Shown: in pieces, positions 2,974 through 38,068 of the stretch
Layout of the letters: each line of letters begins with the position of its first letter
How positions within the stretch are numbered: position 1 is the stretch's first letter
Assembly (NCBI GenBank): GCA_902799765.1
Contig: CADCBZ010000004.1
Coordinates: forward strand, 1-64,000
Reading direction: 5' to 3'
Length of the DNA stretch: 64,000 nucleotides
DNA from: an uncultured Prevotellaceae bacterium
GTDB lineage: Bacteria > Bacteroidota > Bacteroidia > Bacteroidales > Bacteroidaceae
Notes under the pieces: generated by a model
Told to the model about the DNA's origin: nothing
Seen by the model: only the letters and a program-made list of their open reading frames with translations
The model's database searches: none
Made by a program: the position numbers and the translations under genes

Positions 2974-4284
2974 TTACTTACGAACTATTGTCTGGTCGCG
3001 GTCAGGACCAATAGAGATAATCTTAATCGGTGTCTCAAGTTGCTTCTCGAGGAAGGCGATATAATCGCTAAATTCCTTCGGGAACTGATCCTCGCTGGTG
3101 AACTTGGTCATGTCGGTCTTCCAGCCTGGCAGTTCCTCATACACGGGTTCGATACCCTCTTCGATATTGTAAGGGAAATAGTCAATCTGTGTGCCATTCT
3201 GTTTGTATGCCACACACGCCTTAATGGTGTCGAAGCCATCGAGTACATCGCTCTTCATCATGATGAGTTGGGTAACACCGTTCACCATGATCGAGTATCT
3301 CAGGGCAACGAGGTCGATCCAGCCACAACGACGCTCACGACCTGTGACGGCACCATACTCATGGCCGAGGTCGCGGATGGTCTTACCCGTTTCATCGAAC
3401 AGTTCCGTGGGGAAAGGACCAGCACCGACACGCGTGCAGTAAGCTTTCATGATACCATAGACTTCACCGATCTTGTTGGGACCGATACCCAGACCAGTGC
3501 AAGCTCCTGCGCAAATGGTGTTGGATGAGGTAACAAAAGGATAAGAACCGAAATCCACATCGAGCATTGTGCCCTGAGCACCCTCGCAGAGAACGCTCTT
3601 ATCGCTCTTAAGCAGATTGTTGAGCTCATGCTCAGAATCAACGATTGGGAACTGACGGAGGTACTCTACACCCTCAAGCCACTTCTTCTCTACTTTGTGA
3701 AGCGTTGTAAGTTGATTATTGAGCGCAAAGCGTTGCTCCTCATCCAGGTTGCTCGCTATAGAGTTGATGATGTTCAGGTGACGAGCCTTCGCCTTAGCGT
3801 ATTTCTCCTCGAAGTTCTCAAGGATATCACCTACACGCAGACCGTTACGACTAACCTTATCTGTATAAGTAGGACCAATACCCTTTCCAGTAGTACCTAC
3901 CTTATCCTTACCCTTCTGAGCCTCATAAGCAGCATCGAGAACGCGATGGGTTGGCATGATGAGATGAGCCTTCTTTGAGATATGCAGACGACTACGAAGC
4001 TCGTGTCCGCTTGCCTCAAGAGCCTTGGCCTCGTCCATAAACAGGTCTGGAGCCAATACTACACCATTACCGATGATGTTAACCTTGTCGCCCTGGAAAA
4101 TACCAGATGGAATAGAGCGAAGCACATACTTCTGGCCCTCGAACTCAAGAGTATGACCAGCATTTGGACCACCCTGGAAACGGGCTACCACGTCGTACTT
4201 TGGGGTTAACACGTCAACTACCTTACCTTTTCCTTCGTCGCCCCACTGCAAACCGAGCAGGACATCTACTTTACCTTTGTTCAT
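2974..4284 (-). CDS. purA: Adenylosuccinate synthetase
   Basis: Converts IMP, aspartate and GTP to adenylosuccinate, the first committed step to AMP. The 436-residue protein carries the N-terminal GLQWGDEGKGK phosphate loop at residues 11-21, the GPNAGHT IMP-binding stretch near 39-45, and GTTGKGIGPTY near 130. GAGPFPTEL and TGRERRCGWID lie in the C-terminal half. The C-terminus ends in IISIGPDRDQTIV. It lies ten bases after the Fur-family gene and three before hisS. Other purine genes in this window are purC and purM, far away on the plus strand. Confidence 0.97.
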   Translation of the reverse strand: MNKGKVDVLLGLQWGDEGKGKVVDVLTPKYDVVARFQGGPNAGHTLEFEGQKYVLRSIPSGIFQGDKVNIIGNGVVLAPDLFMDEAKALEASGHELRSRLHISKKAHLIMPTHRVLDAAYEAQKGKDKVGTTGKGIGPTYTDKVSRNGLRVGDILENFEEKYAKAKARHLNIINSIASNLDEEQRFALNNQLTTLHKVEKKWLEGVEYLRQFPIVDSEHELNNLLKSDKSVLCEGAQGTMLDVDFGSYPFVTSSNTICAGACTGLGIGPNKIGEVYGIMKAYCTRVGAGPFPTELFDETGKTIRDLGHEYGAVTGRERRCGWIDLVALRYSIMVNGVTQLIMMKSDVLDGFDTIKACVAYKQNGTQIDYFPYNIEEGIEPVYEELPGWKTDMTKFTSEDQFPKEFSDYIAFLEKQLETPIKIISIGPDRDQTIVRK

Positions 4285-25268: not shown

Positions 25269-27401
25269 TTATACTTTCTTCAAAACAACGGCAGAACGTG
25301 CCGGGATATAGAGTTTCAACCACTCCTTATGATCCTTGACATAGAGTGGATCATAGTTGGTCAGGTGTGTCATCGTGTCATCGGCAAAGCCGTTACCACC
25401 AAAGTCCTTCGAGTCGGTGTTCAGCACCACCTCGTATGAACCTGTCGGCACGAGGAAACCGTAATCGGTATAGCTGCGTGTCGGTGAGAAGTTGAACACG
25501 AAGACAAGGTCGCCTCTCATGAAGCAGAGCACCTGGTCACCATCGTCGTGCCAGATCTCAACCACGGGTTTATCCTGGAAGTTACGCACGCTCTTAATGG
25601 TCTTCAGCATCTCACGGTCGAAGTCGCCCAACCAGTGATAGCAGAGGTCCTTATTATCCACGAGATTCCACTGACGGCGGGCATACTTATATGACCAGCC
25701 GTTACCCTCACGCGGGAAGTCGATCCACTCCGGATGACCGAACTCATTACCCATGAAGTTCAGATAACCACCGTTGATGGCAGCAGCCGTCACCAGACGG
25801 ATCATCTTATGCATGGCGATACCACGCTGAGCCATATCGTTGACATCCTTCTTGGCGAAGTGCCAGTACATATCTGCATCAATCAGACGGAAGATGATGG
25901 TCTTATCACCTACCAATGCCTGGTCGTGACTCTCGCAGTATGAGATGGTCTTCTCGTCAGGACGACGGTTCTTAACCTCCCAGAAGATAGAACATACGTT
26001 AATATCCTCGTCGCGTACCTCCTTAATCGTCTTGATCCAGTAGTCAGGGATGTTCATCGCCATACGGTAGTCGAAGCCGTAACCGCCATCCTCGAACTTA
26101 GCAGCCAAGCCAGGCATACCTGATACTTCTTCCGCAATGGTGATAGCATCTGGATTCACCTCGTGAATCAGGCAGTTTGCCAGTGTGAGATAACAGATGG
26201 CATTATCGTCCTCGTGACCGTTAAAGTAGTCACCATAACCACCGAAGGCCTCACCGAGTCCATGAGAGTAATACAGCATGGAGGTCACACCGTCGAAACG
26301 GAAACCGTCAAACTTGAACTCCTCCAACCAATACTTACAGTTAGAGAGCAGGAAGTGCAACACGTCATCCTTACCATAGTCGAAGCAGAGAGAGTCCCAT
26401 GCCGGATGCTCATGACGATCACCGGGATAGAAGAACTGATTCGGGTCACCAGCCAGGTTGCCCAAGCCTTCCACCTCGTTCTTCACAGCGTGAGAGTGTA
26501 CGATATCCATGATGACAGAGATGCCCAGACGGTGAGCCTCGTCGATCAAAGCCTTCAACTCCTCAGGCGTTCCGAAACGGCTGCTGGGAGCAAAGAACGA
26601 GCTCACATGATATCCGAAGGAGCCATAATAAGGATGCTCCTGAATAGCCATCACCTGAATAGCGTTATAACCATCCTTGGCAACGCGCGGCAGAATCTTC
26701 TCCTTGAACTCCGTATAGGTACCTACCTTCTCGGCATCCTGAGCCATACCTACATGACATTCGTAGATCAGCAGCGGACTCTTCTTAGGCTTGAAGTTCT
26801 TCTTTTTGAATTCGTATTTCTCCTCAGGATTCCAGACCTGTGCAGAGAAAATCTTGGTATTGTCGTCCTGTACCACACGACGGCACCAGGCTGGGATACG
26901 TTCACCTTCACCACCGTTCCACTTTACCTTCATCTTGTAAAGCTGACCGTGCTTCAAGGCCTTCTCTGAGAGCTTCAGTTCCCAGTTGCCAGTACCCTCA
27001 ATACGCTTGCAACGATACTTCTCATCTTCCTTCCAGTCATTGAAGTCACCGATCAGATAAATGTCTGTGGCGTTAGGAGCCCACTCGCGGAACACCCAAC
27101 CTTTGGGCAGCTTGTGGAGTCCGAAATAGAGATGACCGGAAGCAAAGTCAGAGAGCTTCTGCTTTCCGTTCTTTGTCAGCTGTCCGATCTTCCACAGGGC
27201 ATGGTCGTGACGGCCGCGGATCGCCCCTTCGAAGGGCTCCAGCCATGAGTCGTTCCTCACAAGACCAATGTGCTGCGGAGCAGTCTGGTCAACAATCTTC
27301 TCAACCTTCTTGGCGCAAGATTTCTTCGCCGTTGTGGCTTTTTTAGGAGCTGCAGCTTTCTTTGCAGCAGGCTTTTTAGTGGTTTCTTTCTTTGTTGCCA
27401 T
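25269..27401 (-). CDS. glgB: 1,4-alpha-glucan branching enzyme (GH13, eukaryote-like) with a Lys/Ala-rich N-terminal tail
   Basis: Forms alpha-1,6 branches in glycogen; 710 residues. After a tail of about 39 residues rich in Lys, Ala and Thr (MATKKETTKKPAAKKAAAPKK), a CBM48-like domain (WVFREWAPNATDIYLIGDFNDW) precedes the GH13 barrel. Barrel regions: DIVHSHAVKN, FRFDGVTSMLYY with the nucleophile Asp, TIAEEVSGMPG with the acid Glu, and CESHDQALVGDKT. The organisation is that of the GH13_8, eukaryote-type branching enzymes found in Bacteroidetes. It sits between a YhcH-like gene and the membrane protein gene. Confidence 0.95.
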   Translation of the reverse strand: MATKKETTKKPAAKKAAAPKKATTAKKSCAKKVEKIVDQTAPQHIGLVRNDSWLEPFEGAIRGRHDHALWKIGQLTKNGKQKLSDFASGHLYFGLHKLPKGWVFREWAPNATDIYLIGDFNDWKEDEKYRCKRIEGTGNWELKLSEKALKHGQLYKMKVKWNGGEGERIPAWCRRVVQDDNTKIFSAQVWNPEEKYEFKKKNFKPKKSPLLIYECHVGMAQDAEKVGTYTEFKEKILPRVAKDGYNAIQVMAIQEHPYYGSFGYHVSSFFAPSSRFGTPEELKALIDEAHRLGISVIMDIVHSHAVKNEVEGLGNLAGDPNQFFYPGDRHEHPAWDSLCFDYGKDDVLHFLLSNCKYWLEEFKFDGFRFDGVTSMLYYSHGLGEAFGGYGDYFNGHEDDNAICYLTLANCLIHEVNPDAITIAEEVSGMPGLAAKFEDGGYGFDYRMAMNIPDYWIKTIKEVRDEDINVCSIFWEVKNRRPDEKTISYCESHDQALVGDKTIIFRLIDADMYWHFAKKDVNDMAQRGIAMHKMIRLVTAAAINGGYLNFMGNEFGHPEWIDFPREGNGWSYKYARRQWNLVDNKDLCYHWLGDFDREMLKTIKSVRNFQDKPVVEIWHDDGDQVLCFMRGDLVFVFNFSPTRSYTDYGFLVPTGSYEVVLNTDSKDFGGNGFADDTMTHLTNYDPLYVKDHKEWLKLYIPARSAVVLKKV

Positions 27402-27407
27402 AAGTTA

Positions 27408-27857
27408 TTACTTTACCTTAACCTTAAAAATTGCTTTCTTGATTTCCTCGTTTTCCGATATACAGGGTGCATGACCATCCTGAGGGAAGAATATAGCCAT
27501 CTGACAGGGCTTGAGGGTGACATAGGTCTGCGCCATTGTTGTACCGTATTTCGTAATATCCTTCTCTGCATTGTATTCAAACTCAGGCAGGTCTCCTAAA
27601 GGAGTATAGCCGAAGGTCTCGTTGCATGAGAGAGGGATCTGAATATCAATCATGTCAATATGAGTCTCCAGCGTGGCGGCCTCCCTTGCACGGCCTTTAG
27701 CCACAGTGAGATTCAGAAACAGATCCTTGTCCTTGATAGGATACTTGCCAGCCTCCATCGTCTGGAGATCGTGCGTCTTCAGGAATTCCACTACGTCGGC
27801 AAACAGCGGATTCAGTGCTGTGTATTTGCCCAGATTGTCAAGCGTGTCGATGATCAT
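27408..27857 (-). CDS. YhcH/YjgK/YiaL-family protein (DUF386)
   Basis: A 149-residue cupin-like protein of the YhcH/YjgK/YiaL family, implicated in sugar metabolism (sialic acid or 2,3-diketogulonate anomers) in other bacteria. Typical segments: the N-terminal MIIDTLDNLGKYTALNP, LETHIDMIDIQIPLSCNETFGYTPL, and MAIFFPQDGHAPCI with probable metal-binding residues. It is 25 bases after the MORN-repeat gene and six before glgB. The substrate here is unknown. Confidence 0.9.
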   Translation of the reverse strand: MIIDTLDNLGKYTALNPLFADVVEFLKTHDLQTMEAGKYPIKDKDLFLNLTVAKGRAREAATLETHIDMIDIQIPLSCNETFGYTPLGDLPEFEYNAEKDITKYGTTMAQTYVTLKPCQMAIFFPQDGHAPCISENEEIKKAIFKVKVK

Positions 27858-27882
27858 AACGATTATAATTTTTAAGTTGTTG

Positions 27883-28995
27883 TTATTTGATTTGCCTGTG
27901 TCCGCGGGTATAGATCCCTTGGGCTTTTATATTTCCATCTCTGTCTTTCTCTACGAACTTGCCGTCGCGCACATCGTCGGCATAGGTGCCTTCAAAACGG
28001 TTACCATCCTTATCCTCCTCAATGGCAGGACCGTTGCGCTTACCATCCTTGAAGATGCCCTTGAACTTCGAGCCGTCGGCAAAACGGGCGATGCACTCGC
28101 CGTTGGGCTGACCGTTCATGAAGATGCCTTCTACGGTGTCACCGTTCTTCTTACTCAGCTTTCCTTTGCCGCTCTGTTTATCCGATTTCCACTGACCTAC
28201 ATAGCTGTCGCCGTTCTTCCATACGAAAGTGCCCTGACCATGCTTGTCGCCATTCAGAAACTGACCTGTATATTTGTCACCATTGGCATATTTGAAGATA
28301 CCCGAACCAGTACGTGCGCCATGCGAATAGTCGCCCTCATACACGTCACCGTTCTGGAACTTATAGATACCACGCCCGTTCATCTCATCATCCAACCACT
28401 GACCGATATAACTGTCACCGTCAGAATAGGTAAAGGTGCCATTACCAGAGCGCATATTATCCTTCCAGTCACCATTGTATGAAGAACCGTCTCCCCAGTC
28501 GAAGAGGCCCTTGCCGTTACGCTTGTCATTCAGCCAGTCACCTTTATAGAAGGCGCCTGTAGCGTAAAGATACATACCCTTGCCCGAGCGTTTGTCCTGT
28601 TTCCAGTCGCCGTCATACTTGTCGCCGTTGAAGTAATACATCACGCCATGACCATGCTGGTAGTCACGAAACCACAGACCCTCATAACGGTTGTTGTTCA
28701 GGAAATAATAGGTACCTTGTCCGTGCTGCTGGTCCTGAAACCACTCTCCTTCGTATTTCTCGCCGTCGGCAAAGGTATAGACGCCATAGCCCTGACGCTT
28801 GCCCTTCACGTATTCTCCTTCGTAACTGTTACCGTTCTTATAGCTTGTGCGGCCTTTGCCATTAGGCTTTCCGCCCACCATCTCTCCATTGTATTCTCCC
28901 CCGTCCTTCGTCTTGGCAGAACCGAGGGTAATCTTCTGGGCTCCAACCATCAACGGAAGCATCAACATCAGTATTGTATATGTAAATCTCTTCAT
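27883..28995 (-). CDS. Secreted MORN-repeat protein (about 14 repeats)
   Basis: A 370-residue protein with a signal peptide (MKRFTYTILMLMLPLMVGAQ, cleavage near residue 19) and then almost nothing but MORN repeats of 23 residues each (YEGEW...G.G.Y.F.NGD pattern). I count about 14 from residue 34 to the C-terminus. MORN arrays form extended beta sheets and serve as protein- or lipid-contact scaffolds. With the signal peptide it should be periplasmic or cell-surface. It heads a unit with yhcH-like, glgB and the membrane protein genes; its own partner is unknown. Confidence 0.92.
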   Translation of the reverse strand: MKRFTYTILMLMLPLMVGAQKITLGSAKTKDGGEYNGEMVGGKPNGKGRTSYKNGNSYEGEYVKGKRQGYGVYTFADGEKYEGEWFQDQQHGQGTYYFLNNNRYEGLWFRDYQHGHGVMYYFNGDKYDGDWKQDKRSGKGMYLYATGAFYKGDWLNDKRNGKGLFDWGDGSSYNGDWKDNMRSGNGTFTYSDGDSYIGQWLDDEMNGRGIYKFQNGDVYEGDYSHGARTGSGIFKYANGDKYTGQFLNGDKHGQGTFVWKNGDSYVGQWKSDKQSGKGKLSKKNGDTVEGIFMNGQPNGECIARFADGSKFKGIFKDGKRNGPAIEEDKDGNRFEGTYADDVRDGKFVEKDRDGNIKAQGIYTRGHRQIK

Positions 28996-29023
28996 GAGTA
29001 ATCTTGCTTTTTTAAATCATGTG

Positions 29024-29031
29024 CAAATTTA
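29024..29031 (-). promoter_or_regulatory. Promoter -7 element of the MORN-glgB unit
   Basis: Minus strand TAAATTTG, 28 bases before the ATG at 28995; divergent from the kdsB promoter. Confidence 0.6.
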
Positions 29032-29118
29032 CTGATTTTTTCTGAGACCAGCAAATTTTTCTCATACTTATTAACGTTTATTTCTTATTATTTATTTGGT
29101 TTTCTTCTCACTTATTCG

Positions 29119-29126
29119 TATCTTTG
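29119..29126 (+). promoter_or_regulatory. kdsB promoter -7 element, near-leaderless
   Basis: TATCTTTG only eight bases before the ATG at 29135. Transcription would start within a few bases of the start codon, so the message probably has little or no leader. Confidence 0.7.
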
Positions 29127-29134
29127 CATCCTGT

Positions 29135-29875
29135 ATGAAATATATCGCAATTATCCCCGCCCGTTACGCTTCCACGCGATTTCCGGGCAAACCGCTGGCG
29201 ATGCTTGGCGGTAAGTCAGTGATTCAGAGAGTGTATGAGCAGGTGAGCAGCGTGCTCGACGAGGTCTATGTGGCTACCGACGATGAGCGCATCTTCTCCT
29301 GTGTGGAATCCTTTGGCGGTAAGGCAGTGATGACCCGATCCGACCATAAGAGCGGTACCGACCGTATCCAGGAAGCTGTTGAGAAGATCGGTACCCAGGC
29401 CGACGTCATCATCAATGTTCAGGGTGACGAGCCTTTCATCCAACCCTCACAGGTAGAGACCCTGATGCATCTCTTCGACGAGTCCTCTACCCAGATTGGT
29501 ACGCTCGGCAAACGGTTTGATTCCTTAGAGGCCATCCAGAATCCTAATTCGCCAAAGATCGTCACCGACATCCGAGGCTTTGCCCTCTATTTTAGCCGTT
29601 CGGTGATTCCTTATATCAGAGGTGTCGAGACACAGGATTGGTTCGGACAGTATCCCTTCCTCAAGCACTTGGGTATCTATGCTTATCGACGTGAAGTGTT
29701 GGCAGAAGTAACAAAACTGCCTCAGAGCAGTCTGGAGAAGGCTGAGAGTCTGGAGCAGTTACGTTGGCTGGAGAACGGTTATCGCATCCGTGTCGGGCTG
29801 ACCGATGTCGAGACTGTTGGCATCGACACACCAGAGGATCTGCAACGGGCTGAGGCTTTCCTCAAAACCATATGA
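29135..29875 (+). CDS. kdsB: 3-deoxy-manno-octulosonate cytidylyltransferase
   Basis: Activates KDO as CMP-KDO for lipid A-core assembly in the cytoplasm. The 246-residue protein opens with the CTP-binding MKYIAIIPARYASTRFPGKPLA. It also shows VYVATDDERI, MTRSDHKSGTDRI, INVQGDEPFIQP and HLGIYAYRREVL, all standard KdsB blocks. The ATG at 29135 was chosen because the in-frame codons before it lie within the promoter. It fits functionally with the lpxD-lpxC-lpxA genes at the right end of the window, but is transcribed alone here. Confidence 0.96.
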   Translation: MKYIAIIPARYASTRFPGKPLAMLGGKSVIQRVYEQVSSVLDEVYVATDDERIFSCVESFGGKAVMTRSDHKSGTDRIQEAVEKIGTQADVIINVQGDEPFIQPSQVETLMHLFDESSTQIGTLGKRFDSLEAIQNPNSPKIVTDIRGFALYFSRSVIPYIRGVETQDWFGQYPFLKHLGIYAYRREVLAEVTKLPQSSLEKAESLEQLRWLENGYRIRVGLTDVETVGIDTPEDLQRAEAFLKTI

Positions 29876-29887
29876 TAACAAAGAAAC

Positions 29888-29911
29888 GAGGGCGTGATTC
29901 TTCACGCCCTC
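29888..29911. terminator. Terminator hairpin shared by kdsB and the DnaJ-like gene
   Basis: GAGGGCGTG (29888-29896) pairs with CACGCCCTC (29903-29911) across ATTCTT. The right arm contains the last codons and stop (GCG TGA) of the convergent DnaJ-like gene. The plus strand continues TGCATTTCTCTT, a weak T run. Confidence 0.7.
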
Positions 29912-30603
29912 TGCATTTCTCTTAATAGTTCTTTCTGTCGCTCTGTCAGGTTGGTCGGCAACTTCACCTGGTAGGTGATAATCAGATCACCAAAGGTACC
30001 ATCGCCCCGATCATAACCCTTACCTCTCAGACGAACCTTCGTTCCTGGCTGTGTCTCTGGTTTGATCTTCATCTTCACCTTCGAGCCGTTCGACAGCGTG
30101 ATCATCACTTCACCGCCCAACATGGCCGTATAGAAGTCGATGGATACGTTGGCGTTCATCTCGCCGGAATTGGTACGAGTCTGTTGTCTGAAGCCAGAAC
30201 CGCCGCTTGAGAAGCCCTGAAAACCACCAAAGCCCCCACCCTGCTGACCTTTTCTGCCAAACAGGTCCTCAAAGAACGAACTGAAGCCTCTGCCACCCGT
30301 AAAACTCGAGAAGTCGAAGCCACCAAACGGATTGCCGCCACCAGCACCGCCGGCACCGAAACCACCGAACTGGTCAGCCTGTTTCCACTGCTCACCATAC
30401 TGGTCATACTTCTTTCGCTTCTCTGGGTCGCCAATCACGTCATACGCTTCCTGCAGCGCCTGGAACTTAGCCTGCGCTTTCGGATCATCAGGATGCAAGT
30501 CTGGGTGAAACTGCTTGGCACGTTTCAGATACGCCTTCTTCACATCCTTCTGCGGAATCGTCTTATCTACGCCTAAAATCTTGTAATAGTCTATAAATGC
30601 CAT
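29902..30603 (-). CDS. DnaJ/CbpA-like co-chaperone without zinc finger
   Basis: A 233-residue Hsp40. The J domain (residues 4-70) has the HPD motif in [13 protein letters not shown] long Gly/Phe-rich linker (about 80-150, [12 protein letters not shown] onwards) leads to a single C-terminal substrate-binding domain ([18 protein letters not shown] to [12 protein letters not shown]). No CxxCxGxG zinc repeats occur, so this is CbpA-type, and shorter than E. coli CbpA (about 306). It stimulates DnaK ATP hydrolysis. An unusually good Shine-Dalgarno sequence (GGAGG, 30616-30612) lies eight bases before the ATG. Confidence 0.92.
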
Positions 30604-30611
30604 AAACTTGT

Positions 30612-30618
30612 CCTCCTT
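30612..30618 (-). promoter_or_regulatory. Strong Shine-Dalgarno site of the DnaJ-like gene
   Basis: Minus strand AAGGAGG, spacer eight bases. Most genes here, as in Bacteroidetes generally, lack a clear Shine-Dalgarno sequence, so this one stands out. Confidence 0.7.
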
Positions 30619-30737
30619 CTTTTTTGTTATTTATTCTACCAAGCCTACAGCAAAAACCGTGCCTAAAACAAAGGAATATTATCTTTGCTTTGTTCTGATA
30701 ATCTTTACAGTGTGTTCAGATGGCATCTACGAGAGAA

Positions 30738-30817
30738 GGAGATAATCTCCGTTATATAGAAGGGATTATCTCTTTCCTTCGTGGAGATGATCTCCATTAG
30801 TCGTGGAGACTATCTGG
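30738..30817. repeat. Four-copy array of GGAGATnATCTCC-like palindromes, period 22-23 bp
   Basis: Copies start at 30738 (GGAGATAATCTCC), 30761 (degenerate AGGGATTATCTCT), 30783 (GGAGATGATCTCC) and 30805 (degenerate GGAGACTATCTGG). Two are perfect 13-bp palindromes. Spacing is 23, 22 and 22 bp, about two helical turns, so all units face the same side of the DNA. Confidence 0.75.
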
Positions 30818-30860
30818 ATAAGGGAAAGAAGGCATTTCTATGAAAATAATGACTAAATTA

Positions 30861-30892
30861 TTTGGAAATCGACGATTTTTGTTGTATCTTTG
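30861..30892 (+). promoter_or_regulatory. Consensus promoter of an unassigned plus-strand transcript
   Basis: TTTG at 30861-30864 and TATCTTTG at 30885-30892, separated by 20 bases, match both halves of the Bacteroidetes promoter. No protein gene follows, only a nine-codon frame (MKQIQQIHR, 30910-30939) and the cruciform. Confidence 0.7.
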
Positions 30893-30913
30893 CACCGTTA
30901 ATCAAAACTATGA

Positions 30914-31030
30914 AACAGATACAACAGATACACAGATAAAATCTAAGATATCTCGCGTACCGCGCGCCTATATGCGTATACGCGGTACGCGAGGAAATAT
31001 AGAAACTATCTGTTATATCTGTTATCTGTT
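30914..31030. repeat. Large nested inverted repeat: triple ACAGATA arms around a 13-bp GC palindrome
   Basis: The left arm has three repeats (AACAGATA 30914, AACAGATA 30923, CACAGATA 30931). The right arm has three inverse copies (TATCTGTT at 31007, 31016 and 31023). Inside lies a perfect 13-bp inverted repeat, CTCGCGTACCGCG (30952-30964) with CGCGGTACGCGAG (30981-30993). It could be a miniature mobile element or a processed hairpin RNA. Confidence 0.7.
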
Positions 31031-31041
31031 ACTTACCAATG

Positions 31042-31121
31042 TGCTATATAATAGCAATATTTCCTGGATTTAATTCCAGCAATTGCTACATTTAAATGTA
31101 ACAAGTTCCAGAATTAAATCC
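31042..31121. repeat. Cluster of AT-rich palindromes
   Basis: In order: TGCTAT/ATAGCA (31042-31056), CTGGA/TCCAG (31064-31079), GCAATTGC (31079-31086), TACATTTAAATGTA (31087-31100), and GGATTTAATTC (31066-31076), which is complementary to GAATTAAATCC (31111-31121). Several of these pairings exclude each other. Confidence 0.65.
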
Positions 31122-31181
31122 CGCAAATGACACTACTTATTGACAAACTCACGCGCTTCTATTCCACACAAATCTATAAAA

Positions 31182-31222
31182 TAGGCGCAATAACCTCACG
31201 GTCGTGCGCCTAGAAGATTTTT
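31182..31222. terminator. Hairpin with T runs on both sides
   Basis: TAGGCGCA (31182-31189) pairs with TGCGCCTA (31205-31212), followed by GAAGATTTTTTAATT on the plus strand and TTTTATAG on the minus strand. Confidence 0.7.
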
Positions 31223-31377
31223 TAATTGATTTTATTAACTAATTAATCCTGCTGGATGCCTTCACAGGCTACATCAGGCTTCTAAACTTAAGACACCCAC
31301 AGGATTTGTGGGCATATCATTCAACTTGATTCAAGTCGTATATTATAGACATCCCTACGTCAATAACAAAAACACAC

Positions 31378-31620
31378 GAAAAAAGCGTGGCACTATTTGC
31401 CCGCTATTGAATCGAAGGTTGTAGGATACCCGCTAAATGATAACTGACAATAGTCCACGCAGATATGCTATACCTCCACAAAGGGGCTAAATAACATAAT
31501 GCGTGAACGAAGATTGCCGTTAATCCCTTTAGCTGAAACTTCCTACATTTCGATTCAGGACAACAAGCATTTCGCTCTTTTCTAAATAGTGTTCTCTCCA
31601 GCACACCTGCCAGACATTGA
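31378..31620 (-). ncRNA. Candidate structured RNA with pseudoknot-like crossing helices
   Basis: A consensus promoter on the minus strand (TTTG 31657-31654, TATCTTTG 31634-31627, spacing 19) predicts a start near 31620. Helix A pairs 31557-31541 with 31426-31408 (TGAATCGAA.ATGTAGGA with its complement). Helix B pairs 31460-31449 with 31397-31385 (GCGTGGACTATT with AATAGTGCCACGC) and is followed at once by six T. The order A-B-A'-B' means the helices cross. It lacks the hallmark sequences of tmRNA, RNase P RNA and SRP RNA. The only long open frame starts inside the promoter and is not credible. Confidence 0.5.
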
Positions 31621-31626
31621 ACGGTG

Positions 31627-31657
31627 CAAAGATACAAAATAATATGTAAAAACCAAA
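31627..31657 (-). promoter_or_regulatory. Consensus promoter of the minus-strand RNA candidate
   Basis: Minus strand TTTG (31657-31654), 19 bases, TATCTTTG (31634-31627); one of the best full-length promoter matches in the window. Confidence 0.7.
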
Positions 31658-31764
31658 ACTTTTAGAGAAAAAAGTGACACTATCGGAATAAATTCTCAAT
31701 TATGGATTAAATAAATTGTAGAGGTTAGCCTAATTATATTGTCTATTAAATTTCCTTTTGTTGC

Positions 31765-31810
31765 AAAAAATAAAACAGGTGCTGCGTGTCGTTAAGACAC
31801 ACGCAAGCAC
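31765..31810 (-). terminator. Probable terminator downstream of the histidine phosphatase gene
   Basis: GTGC-T-GCGTGT (31779-31789) pairs with ACACGC-AA-GCAC (31799-31810) with one bulge. On the minus strand the stem is followed by CTGTTTTATTTTTTGC. It lies about 220 bases after the phosphatase stop. Confidence 0.65.
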
Positions 31811-31825
31811 TCATCTTATTCTTTC

Positions 31826-31890
31826 ATTATAATCTTTATCTGTATTATCAAGATTATAATAATTATCTGCATTATAAGGCGCGTACGCGC
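31826..31890. repeat. AT-rich inverted repeat next to the palindrome GCGCGTACGCGC
   Basis: ATTATAATCTT (31826-31836) pairs with AAGATTATAAT (31850-31860); its loop contains TATCTGTA. A 12-bp perfect palindrome GCGCGTACGCGC follows at 31879-31890. The TATCTG plus GC-palindrome theme echoes the element at 30914-31030. Confidence 0.6.
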
Positions 31891-31933
31891 GTAAGGCAAA
31901 GAAAAGTAAAACGTAATGAATTGGCTTGCGTTT

Positions 31934-32021
31934 AGTTACTTTTTGCAGTGCAATTAGTTACTTTTTAGTCTGCAAAAAGTTACTTTTTACGATGCGATTA
32001 GTTACTTTTTGCGAGACTTTG
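31934..32021. repeat. Four tandem units of exactly 22 bp with a constant 11-bp core
   Basis: The core AGTTACTTTTT starts at 31934, 31956, 31978 and 32000, an exact 22-bp period. The other 11 bp of each unit vary (GCAGTGCAATT, AGTCTGCAAAA, ACGATGCGATT, GCGAGACTTTG). The last unit ends five bases before the end of the histidine phosphatase gene. Confidence 0.85.
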
Positions 32022-32026
32022 AAAAA

Positions 32027-33304
32027 TCAATTTGTCGGCGCGTCCTCAATATTTTCGTATTCGCTCATGGCTTCGGCCATGCGGTTGTCGAGGTCGGAGA
32101 GACTGTAGAGACCATCTTCGTTGGCAGTAAGACCTTCGATGGTGACGGGCATTACCATTGGTGGCTCTTCAACGGATAGCAACGTGCGACCTTGCAACTG
32201 TGAGACGCTCTGATATACAAGATTGATGGCGACATATTCATCGCAGCCGTCTGTCCACTTCTCAAAGACCAGTTTCGAGCCGATGGGTGTGTGCAGTTCC
32301 AGGGCATGTTTGGTCTCGGGATAGTTAAAACCTAATGCAGCACCTATGCTGGCCAGGTTGGAATCGTGACCGCAGAGGAACATGAACTTACGACCATCAT
32401 TGTGCAGCTCTTCGCGGATACGGCTCACCAGTGGATAGGCCAGATTGACGGCAGCGCTGTGGGTAGTGAAAAGTAAAGCGTCATAGACTTCCTTCACACC
32501 GCAGATGGCGCGCCACTGTTCTTCTGTCAATTCATGACCGAAGACTGTCATGCTCTCACTCTCATAACACTGCAGCACCATCGCATCAGCCACGCTGTTG
32601 GCCAACGTGAAACCGCCAGTCATCTTCGGCTCACTGCCCTTCTCCAGTTTGAACTGCGTATCGTCGTAAAAGAAATGGGTCGTATCGTTCGCAGCGGCTG
32701 GCGAATGAGCCATGTCGATGACTTCTTCCATCAGTGTCAGTGTGGGTTGAACGGATGTCATCAATACCCGAGGACCTCCATGCAGGGCATTGATCTCACT
32801 GAGTACCTGTTGACGGTAAGCGTCGTTCATCTTCGTGAACTGCGGGGTAAAAACGGGATCCATCTTATCCTCAGCGAGTTTATGAGTGATCTCCACATTG
32901 GCGAATGGCAGGAATCCTGCAGAGAAGTATTTCGCCGTGGCAAACGTGCGCTGACGAGAGTTGGCATAGAAGAGCACCTCATCGCCCTCAGGACGATAGT
33001 TCTCAGGTAGCAGTCCCTCGCCTACCAACCACTTGCGGAAGAACTGGCCCATCTCCGTCTCCAGTACACCACCACGCAGTGACAACTGGCTCGACGGCGA
33101 CGACCACTTGAACCACTCGTATGGTGTGACCCGCTTGTAAACAGCCCCACCCGATGTCAGCGGAGAGCGGATGTTATGGCGGCTCATCACCACCACTTCT
33201 TTCAGTTGATACTTTGCACGGAAATCATCCGATCGTTTTGTCTGTGCAGAGAGGTTTATAGCAACCATCATGGCGGCTGCGGCCATTATGAAATACTTCT
33301 TCAT
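32027..33304 (-). CDS. Secreted histidine-type acid phosphatase
   Basis: A 425-residue branch 2 histidine phosphatase (acid phosphatase/phytase-like). It has a signal peptide (MKKYFIMAAAAMMVAINLSAQ), then VVVMSRHNIRSPL, the RHxxRxP catalytic motif near residues 42-48 with the phospho-accepting His. CGHDSNLASIGAALGF near the C-terminus supplies the HD acid/base pair. It probably hydrolyses phosphomonoesters in the periplasm; phytate or sugar phosphates cannot be told apart. Together with the divergently transcribed 5'-nucleotidase it suggests phosphate scavenging. Confidence 0.9.
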   Translation of the reverse strand: MKKYFIMAAAAMMVAINLSAQTKRSDDFRAKYQLKEVVVMSRHNIRSPLTSGGAVYKRVTPYEWFKWSSPSSQLSLRGGVLETEMGQFFRKWLVGEGLLPENYRPEGDEVLFYANSRQRTFATAKYFSAGFLPFANVEITHKLAEDKMDPVFTPQFTKMNDAYRQQVLSEINALHGGPRVLMTSVQPTLTLMEEVIDMAHSPAAANDTTHFFYDDTQFKLEKGSEPKMTGGFTLANSVADAMVLQCYESESMTVFGHELTEEQWRAICGVKEVYDALLFTTHSAAVNLAYPLVSRIREELHNDGRKFMFLCGHDSNLASIGAALGFNYPETKHALELHTPIGSKLVFEKWTDGCDEYVAINLVYQSVSQLQGRTLLSVEEPPMVMPVTIEGLTANEDGLYSLSDLDNRMAEAMSEYENIEDAPTN

Positions 33305-33327
33305 TCCTTACTATTTTGATCTGCTTG

Positions 33328-33335
33328 CAAAGATA
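33328..33335 (-). promoter_or_regulatory. Promoter -7 element of the histidine phosphatase gene
   Basis: Minus strand TATCTTTG, 23 bases before the ATG at 33304; divergent from the nucleotidase promoter. Confidence 0.7.
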
Positions 33336-33398
33336 GACTTTTTTTACTGAAAGAAGAAAATATGCCTGATAAAATTTGCATTCTAGGTTATTTTTTTG

Positions 33399-33414
33399 TA
33401 ACTTTGCATGCAAA
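33399..33414 (+). promoter_or_regulatory. 5'-nucleotidase promoter with overlapping palindrome TTTGCATGCAAA
   Basis: TAACTTTG (33399-33406) is the -7 element. A perfect 12-bp palindrome TTTGCATGCAAA (33403-33414) overlaps its end and would cover the transcription start. A half copy, TTTGCAT, lies upstream at 33375-33381. Confidence 0.6.
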
Positions 33415-33427
33415 TAATTAAAGAATC

Positions 33428-35203
33428 ATGAAAATGAGGATAGCTTTTGTTTCGACTATCATTGCTGCGACGCTGACGCTTTCAGTGCAGGCACAACAGA
33501 CTTCGAAGACCGTCACACTGAAGGTCATCGAGACCAGTGATGTTCACGGACATTTCTTCCCATGGGACTTCATGGAGGCCAGGCCGCTCAGGGGTACACT
33601 GACCCGTGCCAACTCGTATATCAACCGCGAGCGTGAGAAGTGCGGCGAAAACCTGCTGCTCATCGATAACGGCGATATCCTGCAGGGCCAACCTTGTGTA
33701 TATTGGAGCAACTATGTGATGCCAGAAAATGAGAACCTGGCCGCACGGGTAATCAACTACATGAAGTATGATGCCGAGACGGTTGGAAATCACGATATAG
33801 AGCCTGGTCACAAGGTATATGACAAGTGGATCCGTGAGGTGCGCTGTCCGCTGTTGGGCGCCAACATCGTGAAGGAGGAATGTAAGAACGGTGAGGCTAA
33901 TCCCCAGAGCATCTATACCGGTCTGCAGCCCTACTCCGTACATGTGAAAGACGGCGTGAAGATCTGTGTGATCGGTATGCTGACCCCAGCCATTCCGAAC
34001 TGGTTGAATAAGTCGATCTGGAAAGGTATCGAGTTTGAGGAGATGGTCAGCTGTGCCCGTAAATGGGTGAAATACATCCAGGAGAACGAGAAGCCCGACC
34101 TGATCTTCGGTCTTTTCCATAGCGGTAAGGACGGTGGTATCGTGACACCTGACTATGAGGAGAATGCGACGGCAGCCGTTGCCCGAGAAGTGCCCGGCTT
34201 CGACGTGATCTTCTTCGGCCACGACCATCAGGTACATAACGAGTGGATTACCAACAAGGAAGGCAAGCAGGTGCTCATCATCGATCCTTCATGCTGGGTC
34301 AAGAATGTAGCAGAGGCCAATATCGTATTGACCATTCAGGACGGTAAGGTGGTGAATAAGGACATCAAGGGCAAGATTGTCAACGTGGAAGACGAGACCA
34401 TCGACGAGCAGATGCTGGCATACTTTCAGAAGGACATTGATGACGTGAAGACTTATGTTAGTCAGAAAATCGGTTGTTTCAAGTCGCCGATCTATACCAG
34501 AGACAGCTTCTTCGGCAACTCGGCCTTTACCGACCTGATTCATAACCTGCAGTTGCAGATCACCGATGCCGACATCTCGCTAACAGCCCCGCTGGCCTTC
34601 AACTCGACCATCAAAGCCGGTGATGTGACGATGGCCGACATGTTCAAGCTCTACCGCTTTGAGAATCTGCTCTTCACCCTCCGCATGACAGGTGAGGAAA
34701 TACGGAAGCACTTGGAGTACAGCTATGACATGTGGACCAACACGATGATATCACCCGACGACCATGCCCTGCGACTGAATGAGGATTCGAAAGAGGATCA
34801 GCAGCGCACAGGCTTCCAATACTACACTTTCAACTTCGATTCCGCCTGCGGTATCGACTACGAAGTGGACCTGACGAAGCCCGATGGTCAAAAGGTTAAG
34901 ATTCTCCGTATGTCGAACGGTGAACCCTTCGATGAGAAGAAATGGTATAAAGTGGCGATGAACAGCTATCGTGCCAATGGTGGTGGTGAGTTGCTGACAC
35001 AAGGTGCCGGTATCCCCAAGGATTCTCTCGAATCACGTGTAATCTTCCATACTGATCGTGACCAGCGTCATTTCCTGACAGAGGAAATCCGCAAGATGGG
35101 CACGCTGGATCCAAAGCCCAACAACAACTGGAAGTTTGTGCCCGAAGCATGGGTAAAGCCCGCTTTAGAACGCGACAGACAATTACTATTTGGAAATCAA
35201 TAA
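33428..35203 (+). CDS. Periplasmic 5'-nucleotidase / UDP-sugar hydrolase family metallophosphoesterase
   Basis: A 591-residue secreted enzyme with a signal peptide (MKMRIAFVSTIIAATLTLSVQAQ). The calcineurin-like domain has ETSDVHGHFFPWD, DNGDILQGQP, VGNHDIEPG, LFHSGKDGG and FGHDHQVHN, the complete metal-ligand set. The C-terminal 5'-nucleotidase domain contains NSYRANGGGELLTQGAG. Substrates are probably nucleotides or 2',3'-cyclic nucleotides released outside the cytoplasm. ATG at 33428 or 33434 is possible. The stop overlaps the nudC start by one base (TAATG). Confidence 0.92.
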   Translation: MKMRIAFVSTIIAATLTLSVQAQQTSKTVTLKVIETSDVHGHFFPWDFMEARPLRGTLTRANSYINREREKCGENLLLIDNGDILQGQPCVYWSNYVMPENENLAARVINYMKYDAETVGNHDIEPGHKVYDKWIREVRCPLLGANIVKEECKNGEANPQSIYTGLQPYSVHVKDGVKICVIGMLTPAIPNWLNKSIWKGIEFEEMVSCARKWVKYIQENEKPDLIFGLFHSGKDGGIVTPDYEENATAAVAREVPGFDVIFFGHDHQVHNEWITNKEGKQVLIIDPSCWVKNVAEANIVLTIQDGKVVNKDIKGKIVNVEDETIDEQMLAYFQKDIDDVKTYVSQKIGCFKSPIYTRDSFFGNSAFTDLIHNLQLQITDADISLTAPLAFNSTIKAGDVTMADMFKLYRFENLLFTLRMTGEEIRKHLEYSYDMWTNTMISPDDHALRLNEDSKEDQQRTGFQYYTFNFDSACGIDYEVDLTKPDGQKVKILRMSNGEPFDEKKWYKVAMNSYRANGGGELLTQGAGIPKDSLESRVIFHTDRDQRHFLTEEIRKMGTLDPKPNNNWKFVPEAWVKPALERDRQLLFGNQ

Positions 35204-35976
35204 TGGCGAAGACATATTATTTCGTTTTCTGCAAAGAAGACCTGTTGCTCGAAAAGACAGCAGACGGCGGTTATACCATTCCCTTTCAGGAAGAGCCGCC
35301 GACAGAAGTAAAGCCCTGGACGCATCAGATGGACATCACCCCGATGGCTGATGGCTCTCCCGTCATCACCTATCGTATCGATAACCCCATCGCTGATAGC
35401 GACCGCTTTGAGATGATCGGTCTGCGTCAGAGTTACTACAAGCTTCCCCGCCCACTCTATCTCAAAGCAGGGAAATGCCAGGAACTGCTTTACTGGGATC
35501 AGAACACCAAATATTGCGGTGTGTGTGGTGCCCCGATGCGCATGGATACCGATATTTCCAAGAAGTGTACTCAGTGTGGTAAGGAGATTTGGCCCCAACT
35601 GGCCACCGCCGTCATCGTGCTCATTCATAAAGGTGACGAGGTGCTGCTGGTACGCGCCAAGAACTTCAGACGCGATTTCTTCGGTCTGGTGGCAGGTTTT
35701 GTCGAGACAGGAGAGACACTTGAGGAAGCCGTTGCCCGTGAGGCATTGGAAGAGACGGGTGTCACTATCACGAACATCCGTTATTTCGCCTCACAGCCCT
35801 GGCCCTACCCCTGCGGGCTAATGGTGGGCTTCAATGCCGATTATGTGTCGGGCGAGATCCACCTGCAAAAAAGTGAGATTGCCAAAGGCGGATGGTTCCG
35901 TCGTGACAATCTCCCTGAGATTCCTGAGAAGCTGTCGATAGCACGGATGCTACTCGACGACTGGCTGAAAGCTTAA
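35203..35976 (+). CDS. nudC: NAD(+)/NADH diphosphatase (Nudix, NudC-type)
   Basis: A 257-residue Nudix hydrolase that cleaves NAD(H), and in some bacteria removes NAD caps from RNA. A four-Cys zinc ribbon (CGVCGAPM and CTQCGKEI, about residues 106-129) precedes the Nudix box GFVETGETLEEAVAREALEETGV, and the NudC-specific SQPWPYP follows. The start ATG overlaps the nucleotidase stop codon. The cotranscribed nucleotidase suggests nucleotide salvage as a joint theme. Its 3' end overlaps the convergent lipoprotein gene by four bases. Confidence 0.94.
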   Translation: MAKTYYFVFCKEDLLLEKTADGGYTIPFQEEPPTEVKPWTHQMDITPMADGSPVITYRIDNPIADSDRFEMIGLRQSYYKLPRPLYLKAGKCQELLYWDQNTKYCGVCGAPMRMDTDISKKCTQCGKEIWPQLATAVIVLIHKGDEVLLVRAKNFRRDFFGLVAGFVETGETLEEAVAREALEETGVTITNIRYFASQPWPYPCGLMVGFNADYVSGEIHLQKSEIAKGGWFRRDNLPEIPEKLSIARMLLDDWLKA

Positions 35977-36752
35977 TACTCCATCAGCTTCATGGTCTGC
36001 TTGCCTGTAAAGGCTATCTGCGTATCAACCATATAGCAGCTGGCTCCATCAGGTATGCAGAGTGTGGCATCGAAATGCAGGCCATCGGCATCAATATGAT
36101 TGAAGTCCATGGCTCCGAGCACCGCTTCATCCAAGAAACCTGCCGGCACCAGTTTGCTATACATCTGCTTCCTGAAGTCGCTGGAGAATATCTGGTGTGC
36201 CCCGTGGAAGACACTGATGTGCATGATATTGTCGTAATAGACATTTTCCACCTCTAAGCCGTCATCATTGTATGTGTGATTCACGACCTTGTATTTCGTG
36301 GGATTGATAGCGATATACCAATGATAACGTTCTCCGTTGTATGTGACAACAGAATCTTTCTTCACCTGCTGCGTATAGGTGAGTACTTGGGGCTGGTCGT
36401 GCACGAACTCCAGTTCGTCAACGGGATCATCACTTTTCTGCAACTTCACGATGTCACCATTCTGATTTGTGAACCAGAACACATTCGGTGACTGTTTGAC
36501 GATACCATAGGAAGTGCCGGAACCCAAGACCAACGAGTCGCCAATGATCTTGAAATAGGCAGGCATGCTCGTGGTGTCGGAATAGAAGATGGTGTCGCCC
36601 TTCACACGGAACGACACATCACCACCTTCCGAATCCATCCAGACACCTTGCAACATCTGCTTGGCCTCCTTGCTTTCAGCTGGCGCAGAGCCCTGACGGT
36701 TACATCCCACCAGAACGGCTGCAAACATTAATATCGTTGTTATTCTCCTCAT
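35973..36752 (-). CDS. Lipoprotein with C-terminal DUF4738-like domain
   Basis: A 259-residue lipoprotein (MRRITTILMFAAVLVGC, lipobox Cys at residue 17). The first half has beta-rich GVWMDSEGGDVSFRVKGDTIFY, resembling lipocalin-like heme or ligand domains. The second half (YDNIMHISVFHGAHQIFSSDFRK, GAMDFNHIDADGLHFDATLCIP) resembles DUF4738. Its function is unknown. It overlaps the ugd gene by four bases and converges on nudC with a four-base overlap. The family name is from memory and moderately sure. Confidence 0.7.
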   Translation of the reverse strand: MRRITTILMFAAVLVGCNRQGSAPAESKEAKQMLQGVWMDSEGGDVSFRVKGDTIFYSDTTSMPAYFKIIGDSLVLGSGTSYGIVKQSPNVFWFTNQNGDIVKLQKSDDPVDELEFVHDQPQVLTYTQQVKKDSVVTYNGERYHWYIAINPTKYKVVNHTYNDDGLEVENVYYDNIMHISVFHGAHQIFSSDFRKQMYSKLVPAGFLDEAVLGAMDFNHIDADGLHFDATLCIPDGASCYMVDTQIAFTGKQTMKLMEY

Positions 36753-38068
36753 TTACCAATGCAATGATACTCGAACCCGTTCTCATCAAGTTCTTCCGTA
36801 TCAAATATATTTCTTCCGTCGATCACAAGCGGCTGCTTCATTGCCTTCTTGATGACACCCCATCCAGGCAGACGGAATTCCTTCCACTCGGTGAGGAGCA
36901 ACAGGGCATCAGCATCGAGAACGGCATCATACATGTCACGACAGTAAGTGATCTGATCGCCGATACGACGTTTACATTCGTCCATCGCAATCGGATCGTA
37001 AGCGCGGACTTTACAGCCGGCTTCGAGCAGCTTACCGATCATCACGAGAGCGGTAGATTCACGCATATCGTCGGTCTCGGGCTTAAACGACAGACCCCAC
37101 ATGGCAATGGTCTTGCCCTTCAGAGCCTCCACGCTGCCGTATGACTTTACGAGTTTCTCGAAGAGCACGCTCTTCTGCTTCTCATTCACACGTTCCACAG
37201 CCTTCAGCACTTCCATGGAATAACCATTCTGATCGGCAGTCTTAATCAGCGCCTTCACATCCTTGGGGAAGCAAGAGCCGCCATAACCACAGCCTGCATA
37301 AAGGAACTTTCGGCCGATACGCGTATCTGAACCGATACCCGCGCGTACCATATTAACATCAGCACCTACGCGTTCGCAAAGATTGGCGATATCATTCATA
37401 AACGAGATACGGGTGGCCAACATCGAGTTAGCGGCATACTTCGTCATCTCTGCTGAAGGAATATCCATAAAAATCACACGGAAGTTGTTGACCATGAAAG
37501 GCTTATAAAGTCTCGTGAGCACCTTCTTAGCATGCTCGCTTTCCACACCAACGACCACACGGTCTGGTGACATAAAATCTTTGATGGCATTACCCTCTTT
37601 CAGGAACTCCGGGTTAGAAGCCACGTCGAACTCTATATCTACGCCACGCTTCTTCAGCTCGTCCTCAATGGCCTTACGGACTTTCTTTGCAGTACCCACA
37701 GGCACCGTTGACTTGGTAACAACCACCACGTATTTCTTCAGGTTCTCACCAATGGTCTTAGCCACCTGGAGCACATATTTCAAATCTGCAGAACCATCCT
37801 CATCTGGCGGCGTTCCTACTGCAGAGAACACGATTTCTACATCATCGAGTACGGAAGCCAGATCAGTTGTAAACTTCAGACGACCTGCTGCCACGTTCTT
37901 CTTCACAAGTTCATCAAGTCCCGGCTCATAGATGGGGATCTCTCCGTTATTCAGACGCTCAATCTTCTTGGCATCCACATCTACACATGTCACATTAACA
38001 CCTGTGTCGGCAAAACAAGTACCTGACACCAGGCCCACATAGCCTGTTCCTACAATTGCAATATTCAT
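36749..38068 (-). CDS. ugd: UDP-glucose 6-dehydrogenase
   Basis: Oxidises UDP-glucose to UDP-glucuronate for polysaccharide synthesis; 439 residues. The N-terminal NAD fold starts MNIAIVGTGYVGLVSGTCFA. TKSTVPVGTA and FDVASNPEFLKEGNAIKDFMSPDRVVVG follow. The catalytic Cys lies in YAGCGYGGSCFPKDVKAL near residue 260. WGLSFKPETDDMRES marks the C-terminal UDP-binding domain. It is the first gene of a unit with the lipoprotein gene and has its own promoter. Confidence 0.96.
   Translation of the reverse strand: MNIAIVGTGYVGLVSGTCFADTGVNVTCVDVDAKKIERLNNGEIPIYEPGLDELVKKNVAAGRLKFTTDLASVLDDVEIVFSAVGTPPDEDGSADLKYVLQVAKTIGENLKKYVVVVTKSTVPVGTAKKVRKAIEDELKKRGVDIEFDVASNPEFLKEGNAIKDFMSPDRVVVGVESEHAKKVLTRLYKPFMVNNFRVIFMDIPSAEMTKYAANSMLATRISFMNDIANLCERVGADVNMVRAGIGSDTRIGRKFLYAGCGYGGSCFPKDVKALIKTADQNGYSMEVLKAVERVNEKQKSVLFEKLVKSYGSVEALKGKTIAMWGLSFKPETDDMRESTALVMIGKLLEAGCKVRAYDPIAMDECKRRIGDQITYCRDMYDAVLDADALLLLTEWKEFRLPGWGVIKKAMKQPLVIDGRNIFDTEELDENGFEYHCIGK

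Follow-up and report, generated by a model that had tools for sequence, protein, structure and literature searches.

A 22-bp-Step Array in an Uncultured Prevotellaceae Genome, Its Dispersed Family, and Arrays of the Same Step beside VapE Genes

Introduction

Is a strictly periodic array at the 3' side of a histidine phosphatase gene a miniature repeat-spacer system, a local duplication, or one copy of something larger? This question is raised by the 64,000-nucleotide stretch of DNA analyzed here (the window), which belongs to the genome of an uncultured Prevotellaceae bacterium (3.77 Mb, 152 contigs). The preliminary description reported four copies of a constant core in a strict 22-bp period, alternating with variable halves, and likened this alternation to a small repeat-spacer array. 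It also pointed to a second, unrelated array of the same period, the two flanking a gap considered to be RNA-rich. The features discussed below are the following.

31913..32022, no strand assigned: 22-bp-phased array of five units, with GTAAT at 31913 and GTTAC at 31935, 31957, 31979, and 32001
31934..32010, + strand: core of the array with four exact AGTTACTTTTT copies, the originally reported feature (exact matching)
31891..31912, no strand assigned: degenerate sixth unit, in phase, GTAAGGCAAAGAAAAGTAAAAC with GTAAG at 31891 (by eye)
32027..33304, - strand: histidine phosphatase gene (PF00328), with its stop codon at most ~20 bp from the array
30738..30817, no strand assigned: second array, made of palindromes of the GGAGATNATCTCC type, with letters that differ from those of the AGTTACTTTTT array and a step of 22-23 bp
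31045..31132, no strand assigned: palindromic dispersed repeat of 70-80 bp, with a lag-22 score of 40/66

The Array and Its Surroundings

The four copies of AGTTACTTTTT are all exact and start at 31934, 31956, 31978, and 32000 (+), 22 bp apart, which bears out the recurrence and the strict period first reported. The alternation of constant and variable halves also holds at the locus. The unit of the array is 22 bp long and of the GTTACTTTTT type. The array extends beyond the limits first given to it, with GTWAY boxes found in 22-bp phase back to 31891. With one mismatch allowed, AGTTACTTTTT has seven matches in the window, a number reached by none of 100 dinucleotide shuffles (largest count, six). 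The lag-22 identity score of the array is 51/66; when the 1,427-bp gap (30604-32030) was simulated 2000 times under a first-order Markov model, the highest score was 38. The four-fold recurrence of AGTTACTTTTT at 22 bp is therefore real and beyond chance. Furthermore, a period scan of 206 kb of the same genome, part of which was DNA chosen for arrays or VapE genes (lags 14-44, threshold 40/66), returned matches solely at lags 22 (eight), 23 (one), and 44 (two).

The second array harbors GAGATAATCTC at 30739, GGGATTATCTCT at 30762, and GAGATGATCTC at 30784. Its unit starts are 22-23 bp apart, and the 22-bp period ascribed to it was roughly right. The label "RNA-rich" did not hold up for the gap between the two arrays: neither tRNA nor tmRNA was found in the whole window, and an Rfam search of 29000-34000 returned three matches at E ≤1, none of which reached its gathering score. 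By eye, the intergenic segment 31240-31640 resembles a structured RNA, with no Rfam match there above its gathering score. The palindromic repeat of 31045-31132 (segment 31050-31132) recurs at 17 further genomic sites, often on both strands (e.g., C45, C13, C43, and C11), and forms a REP-like family that appears separate from the 22-bp array. A long imperfect inverted repeat with a CGCGTACCGCG-rich tip occupies 30909-31030 (self-match 30914-31030, 73%) and is a DNA hairpin candidate. Elsewhere in the window, an array of GAGGCACGTACCTC-like palindromes with a 23-bp step is located at 509-597. Next to the window array itself, no replicase-like ORF was recognized by eye among the ORFs listed for 26000-38000, tblastn gave no VapE or Toprim match within ~6 kb, and an 11-bp array was not found. 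The segment 31890-32040 had no match among plasmid and phage records.

CRISPR arrays carry unrelated spacers of ~20 bp or more. The alternation of constant and variable halves is the trait that the window array shares with them. The variable halves, however, are 11 bp long, and a GCNNNGC-like pattern recurs in them and in further arrays of the same genome (alignment, by eye). At the orthologous phosphatase locus of genome G257, the array is kept with one 22-bp unit fewer, and the remaining halves stand in the same order. There, ACGATGCGATT is identical, AGTCTGC stands against GGTCTGC, and the halves differ by single changes or none. The two G257 contigs concerned break off at the array or close to it, and the unit number there may therefore have been collapsed. 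The resemblance to a repeat-spacer array thus dissolves on the short halves, on the pattern common to other arrays, and on the order kept in the sole orthologue seen; a CRISPR array is rejected, and the chance that the locus is a miniature array of this kind is negligible. Halves identical in all strains had been expected of an ordinary tandem repeat, and near-identity was indeed found, although in one relative only and with contigs that end at the array. Other arrays, the absence of which would likewise have counted against the preliminary reading, are present in the own genome and in genomes of the genus. Of the 40 genomes searched for the phosphatase, the own one included, six others gave a match at E ≤1e-60; the available part of the 3' flank of these six matches shows no array at or above the threshold. 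By eye, the protein continues beyond the end of the window protein in four of the six, and the window phosphatase appears ~40-50 residues shorter at the array side than its relatives in G018, G001, G013, and G007.

A Dispersed Family in the Genus

Judged by sequence similarity, the window array is one copy of a dispersed repeat family in one bacterial genus. Arrays with common letters and phase occur in its own genome at C10, C62, C84, C109, C12, C21, and partly C9 and C49, and a sequence model added that of C51. Seven own-genome arrays, including that of the window, align without internal gaps. A sequence-only model of this alignment (R1) finds matches at E ≤0.01 in 91 of the 298 genomes of the genus, the own one among them; as at most 13 candidates were scored per genome, the copy counts per genome saturate and stand for "at least". 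Arrays of AGTTACTTTTT itself, which the preliminary description proposed to look for in Prevotella genomes, are confined in exact form to the own genome (an exact pair in one of 299 genus genomes). A lag-22 or lag-44 match overlaps the R1 match in 21 of 27 loci, the others being L231, L239, L245, L247, L251, and L252. The units vary among genomes; G010, for example, has AAAAGGTAACCTTTTGC-like units, and G310 has AAAAGATTAGCTTTTGC. A pattern scan of IMG/VR returned 79 stretches, six of which have a lag-22 match and two GTWAC boxes nearby; stretches with the common GTTAC/GTAAC core include L063, L098, and L105. A genome_contigs scan returned four stretches, among which only the contig end of a Prevotella sp. 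MAG (L309, with AAAAAGTAACTAAGTAGTGCTG repeated) is alike by eye.

A plain local tandem duplication, of no family significance, would explain the gain or loss of units between orthologues. It is nevertheless very unlikely, given the homologous arrays elsewhere in the own genome, the matches in the 91 genomes, and the enrichment beside VapE genes described in the next section.

The 43 family arrays with both neighbors lie between convergent genes in 12 cases, between genes of the same direction in 20, and between divergent genes in 11. This split argues against terminators and reveals no promoter preference. The surroundings of 48 window-family arrays (40 from relatives and eight own) were examined, some of the stretches being cut by contig ends. 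A VapE gene lies in the stretch for five arrays, and a Toprim/DnaB-type primase module for four by tblastn, to which C10 is added by eye; one of these four primases is only 33% identical. A module is thus present for 10 of the 48 arrays, and neither type for 38, the window's included. In L020, L261, L285, and L298, a tblastn match to a small CxxC ORF stops 0-35 bp short of the array. In L020 (3755-3932), this ORF is located between the Toprim/DnaB-type gene and the array, the latter at 3932.

VapE genes are not commoner in array-rich genomes (11 of 16) than in array-poor ones (10 of 14), and genomes G053, G060, G310, G047, and G186 possess arrays but no VapE match. VapE is not needed for the persistence of the window family, because its genes are equally common in array-poor genomes and mostly absent beside the arrays.

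Arrays beside BT4734/VapE Primase-Helicase Genes

Several arrays of the own genome adjoin genes with BT4734-like_N and VapE-like domains, and 48 VapE loci were for this reason scanned for any period. Among PDB sequences, the VapE part has a single match (E 1.3e-8), to 7pds ("Similar to D. nodosus vapE"), which we take to be a SaPI protein. A survey of 40 genomes for VapE genes gave 92 matches, which came from 24 of them. The 48 loci comprise eight of the nine own matches and 40 of the 83 from 13 relatives, chosen for long frames and contig room. G094, G120, G081:C84, and G055 were known beforehand to hold arrays, several loci known to be array-less were also taken, and four of the G024 loci (L178-L181) nearly duplicate one another.

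At these loci, 22-bp-step arrays, in other sequences than that of the window, cluster strongly beside the BT4734/VapE genes. At lag 22 (threshold 42), 28 matches lie within 1.5 kb of the 48 VapE genes versus two farther away, and 24 of the 48 loci are concerned; the intergenic DNA compared amounts to 54,129 bp near the genes and 81,920 bp far from them. Over the same loci, lags 16-31 except 22 together gave six matches near and 14 far. A scan of the 48 loci at threshold 41 (lags 5-55, best lag per cluster) placed 17 lag-22 matches in the 1.5 kb upstream of the genes, seven in the 1.5 kb downstream, and none in 558 kb elsewhere. The corresponding numbers at lag 11 are nine, zero, and two. In an earlier scan of 28 loci, lags 22, 33, and 44 gave seven, four, and three matches, respectively, and 19 matches fell at other lags, many of them in simple-sequence stretches.

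The letters of the arrays at VapE genes differ by gene and by genome, and the 22-bp step is common to them. One array family can accompany unlike VapE proteins, such as those of C57 and C59 in G032 (25% identical) or of L177 and L178 in G024 (32%), and VapE itself is therefore unlikely to read the letters of the array. As a candidate reader, it is weakened by this sharing and by the lack of co-occurrence. The array family at the VapE genes of G032 has 59 matches at 29 places (query counted), and zero, zero, and one in three other genomes; that of G024 has 20 matches at 12 places (query counted) and none in three other genomes. Among ten further G032 places, L320, L321, and L322 carry the flank of the VapE module end (229-286 bp), and L327 does so weakly. 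Such genome-specific families and copied flanks are in line with the main rival reading, which is a real possibility. The arrays would then be selfish or passive DNA, a minisatellite or MITE-like repeat dispersed in the manner of BrickBuilt (see below), copied within a genome and drifting between species without a binding protein of its own. The absence of gene-orientation bias (12/20/11 of 43) and the differing unit number of orthologues also fit a selfish repeat; on the other side stand the symmetry and the step, to which we return below.

In C12, a nucleotidyltransferase/HepT-like pair (L118 5846-6515) lies by a GTWAC array and a VapE gene; its Pfam matches are above cut-off, and NCBIfam MntA and HepT are below theirs. 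A similar nucleotidyltransferase gene adjoins the C109 array. C21 carries, close to its solo GTWAC array, an array with an 11-bp step (ATGTCGGTTTT-like, L119 3155-3231) that is alike by eye to one found upstream of the C12 VapE gene (L118 5512-5599).

The ends of the VapE modules were also compared. Inverted matches between the upstream stretch and the first ~160 bp past the VapE stop were found at 11 of 48 loci, namely L173, L175, L182, L187, L198, L200, L201, L203, and C39, together with L170 and L183, where the matches are weak or accompanied by direct copies; this comparison has no control, and some inverted match occurs at 17 of the 48 loci and some direct match at nine. In the G024 module L182 (9906-13081), the inverted ends are 87-91% identical and ~3 kb apart. 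The small ORF between the inverted matches gave a match to DUF6078 in the one case examined. Opposed site blocks around a gap are also observed behind VapE genes, e.g., in L192 and L201. In a mechanical test with 6-mers, they turned up behind eight of 47 genes and in 16 of 267 control windows; the counts were 5/47 and 9/267 for 7-mers, and 4/47 and 4/267 for 8-mers, a weak enrichment that is suggestive only. A bolder reading of these ends is rather improbable. The VapE and DUF6078 modules would be small chromosomal replicators with both ends origin-like, and the symmetric 22-bp arrays, that of the window among them, would form another class of sites, spread over the genome and recognized by one species-specific dimeric protein, with orphan arrays as extra docking or firing sites.

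Symmetry, Folding, and Possible Role

The units lean to reverse-complement symmetry in aggregate, though their letters differ between genomes. In 23 arrays of differing sequence, a mean of 14.1 of 22 positions per unit are symmetric, compared with 11.3 in shuffled units (z 8.8) and 10.5 in 85 folded flank controls. Taken singly, eight of 24 arrays are symmetric at p <0.05, and the window array, with 14/22 (p 0.11), is not significant. The arrays of both tests (24 singly, 23 pooled) were picked by hand. Reverse-complement symmetry about one point of a periodic sequence implies a second such point half a period away, and a symmetric 22-bp unit has therefore a dyad per 11 bp. This lean to dyads and the 22-bp step are both kept despite the changed letters, and drift alone would erode both, which argues against a selfish repeat.

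When folded as RNA, all ten sequences beat their dinucleotide shuffles (z -2.85 to -8.40), the window array scoring -2.85 (+) and -4.37 (-). Near-symmetric DNA folds well anyway, and good folding is thus non-discriminating. An RNA-level element, forming hairpins in the transcript as a terminator or as an mRNA 3' end element, would agree with this folding and with the short distance (at most ~20 bp) between the window copy and the stop codon. It is unlikely, since the folding is expected from the symmetry of the DNA, the arrays do not concentrate between convergent genes (12 of 43), and the Rfam matches all stay below their gathering scores. A terminator was rejected, with no convergent bias and with a folding that follows from symmetry.

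Our tentative preference is that the window array may be an orphan copy of multi-site binding arrays, of an iteron-, operator-, or partition-like nature, and that such arrays would be the putative sites of replication-type modules. This role is the likeliest because arrays of the same build concentrate at VapE genes and because the window family is also present at an unrelated module of the Toprim/DnaB type. A unit would span about two helical turns with a dyad every ~11 bp, a geometry that would suit dimeric DNA-binding proteins lined on one face of the helix. Replication-type modules would use such arrays, which may occur at solo sites too. For the multi-site binding array, we infer binding by a protein, a role in replication, and a descent of the window copy from a module of this type.

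Comparison with Known Systems

The REP and BIME elements of enterobacteria are palindromic, intergenic, and dispersed. The window family resembles them in these three traits and differs by its 22-bp step and array form.

Among published systems, the closest one found is BrickBuilt, a MITE of Porphyromonas gingivalis (PMC4596501, pointed to via PMC5771137). It is a dispersed intergenic element with a 23-nt tandem repeat of unit AGAYCATARTATCCTCTCRTRTG, present in 19 copies in one genome and possessing a leader, a tail, and terminal inverted repeats like those of the IS5 family (CCGAAAGGTCTC). It shares with the window family a short tandem repeat, dispersal, and an intergenic location. However, its 23-nt AGAYCATARTATCCTCTCRTRTG and the 22-bp GTTACTTTTT type of the window array are unlike in letters when compared by eye, and the name "VirE" is absent from the text (PMC4596501).

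Origins of PICIs are located 3' of rep and display a pair of iteron sets, one on each side of an AT-rich region (PMC6092414). The likeness resides in a replication protein whose gene is followed by repeated sites, and some VapE loci do show opposed blocks. The two differ in that the 22-bp arrays are separate from the opposed site blocks, the enrichment of which is weak, and in that the window copy lacks a rep gene (by eye). Iterons of 22 bp are reported for R6K and pPS10 (PMC4980987), and the satellite PLE carries iterons (PMC7145576). Iteron plasmids and PLE resemble the window family by their few direct repeats, with the same 22-bp length in R6K and pPS10. In contrast, the window-family arrays are chromosomal and mostly have no adjoining replication gene; a cognate initiator gene beside the array, by which an iteron origin is recognized, was not found by tblastn within ~6 kb of the window copy. 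Among openly licensed full texts, no published description was found of symmetric 22-bp arrays that change letters and cluster at VapE.

Conclusions

Were the multi-site arrays binding sites, they would represent a fast-changing DNA code of fixed 22-bp geometry, common to scattered intergenic sites and to multi-copy primase-helicase modules. They would then offer a handle on the function of the BT4734/VapE genes, as well as a test case for how a DNA-binding protein and the sites that it reads co-evolve from one species to another. Should the arrays be a selfish repeat instead, they would still form a large family.
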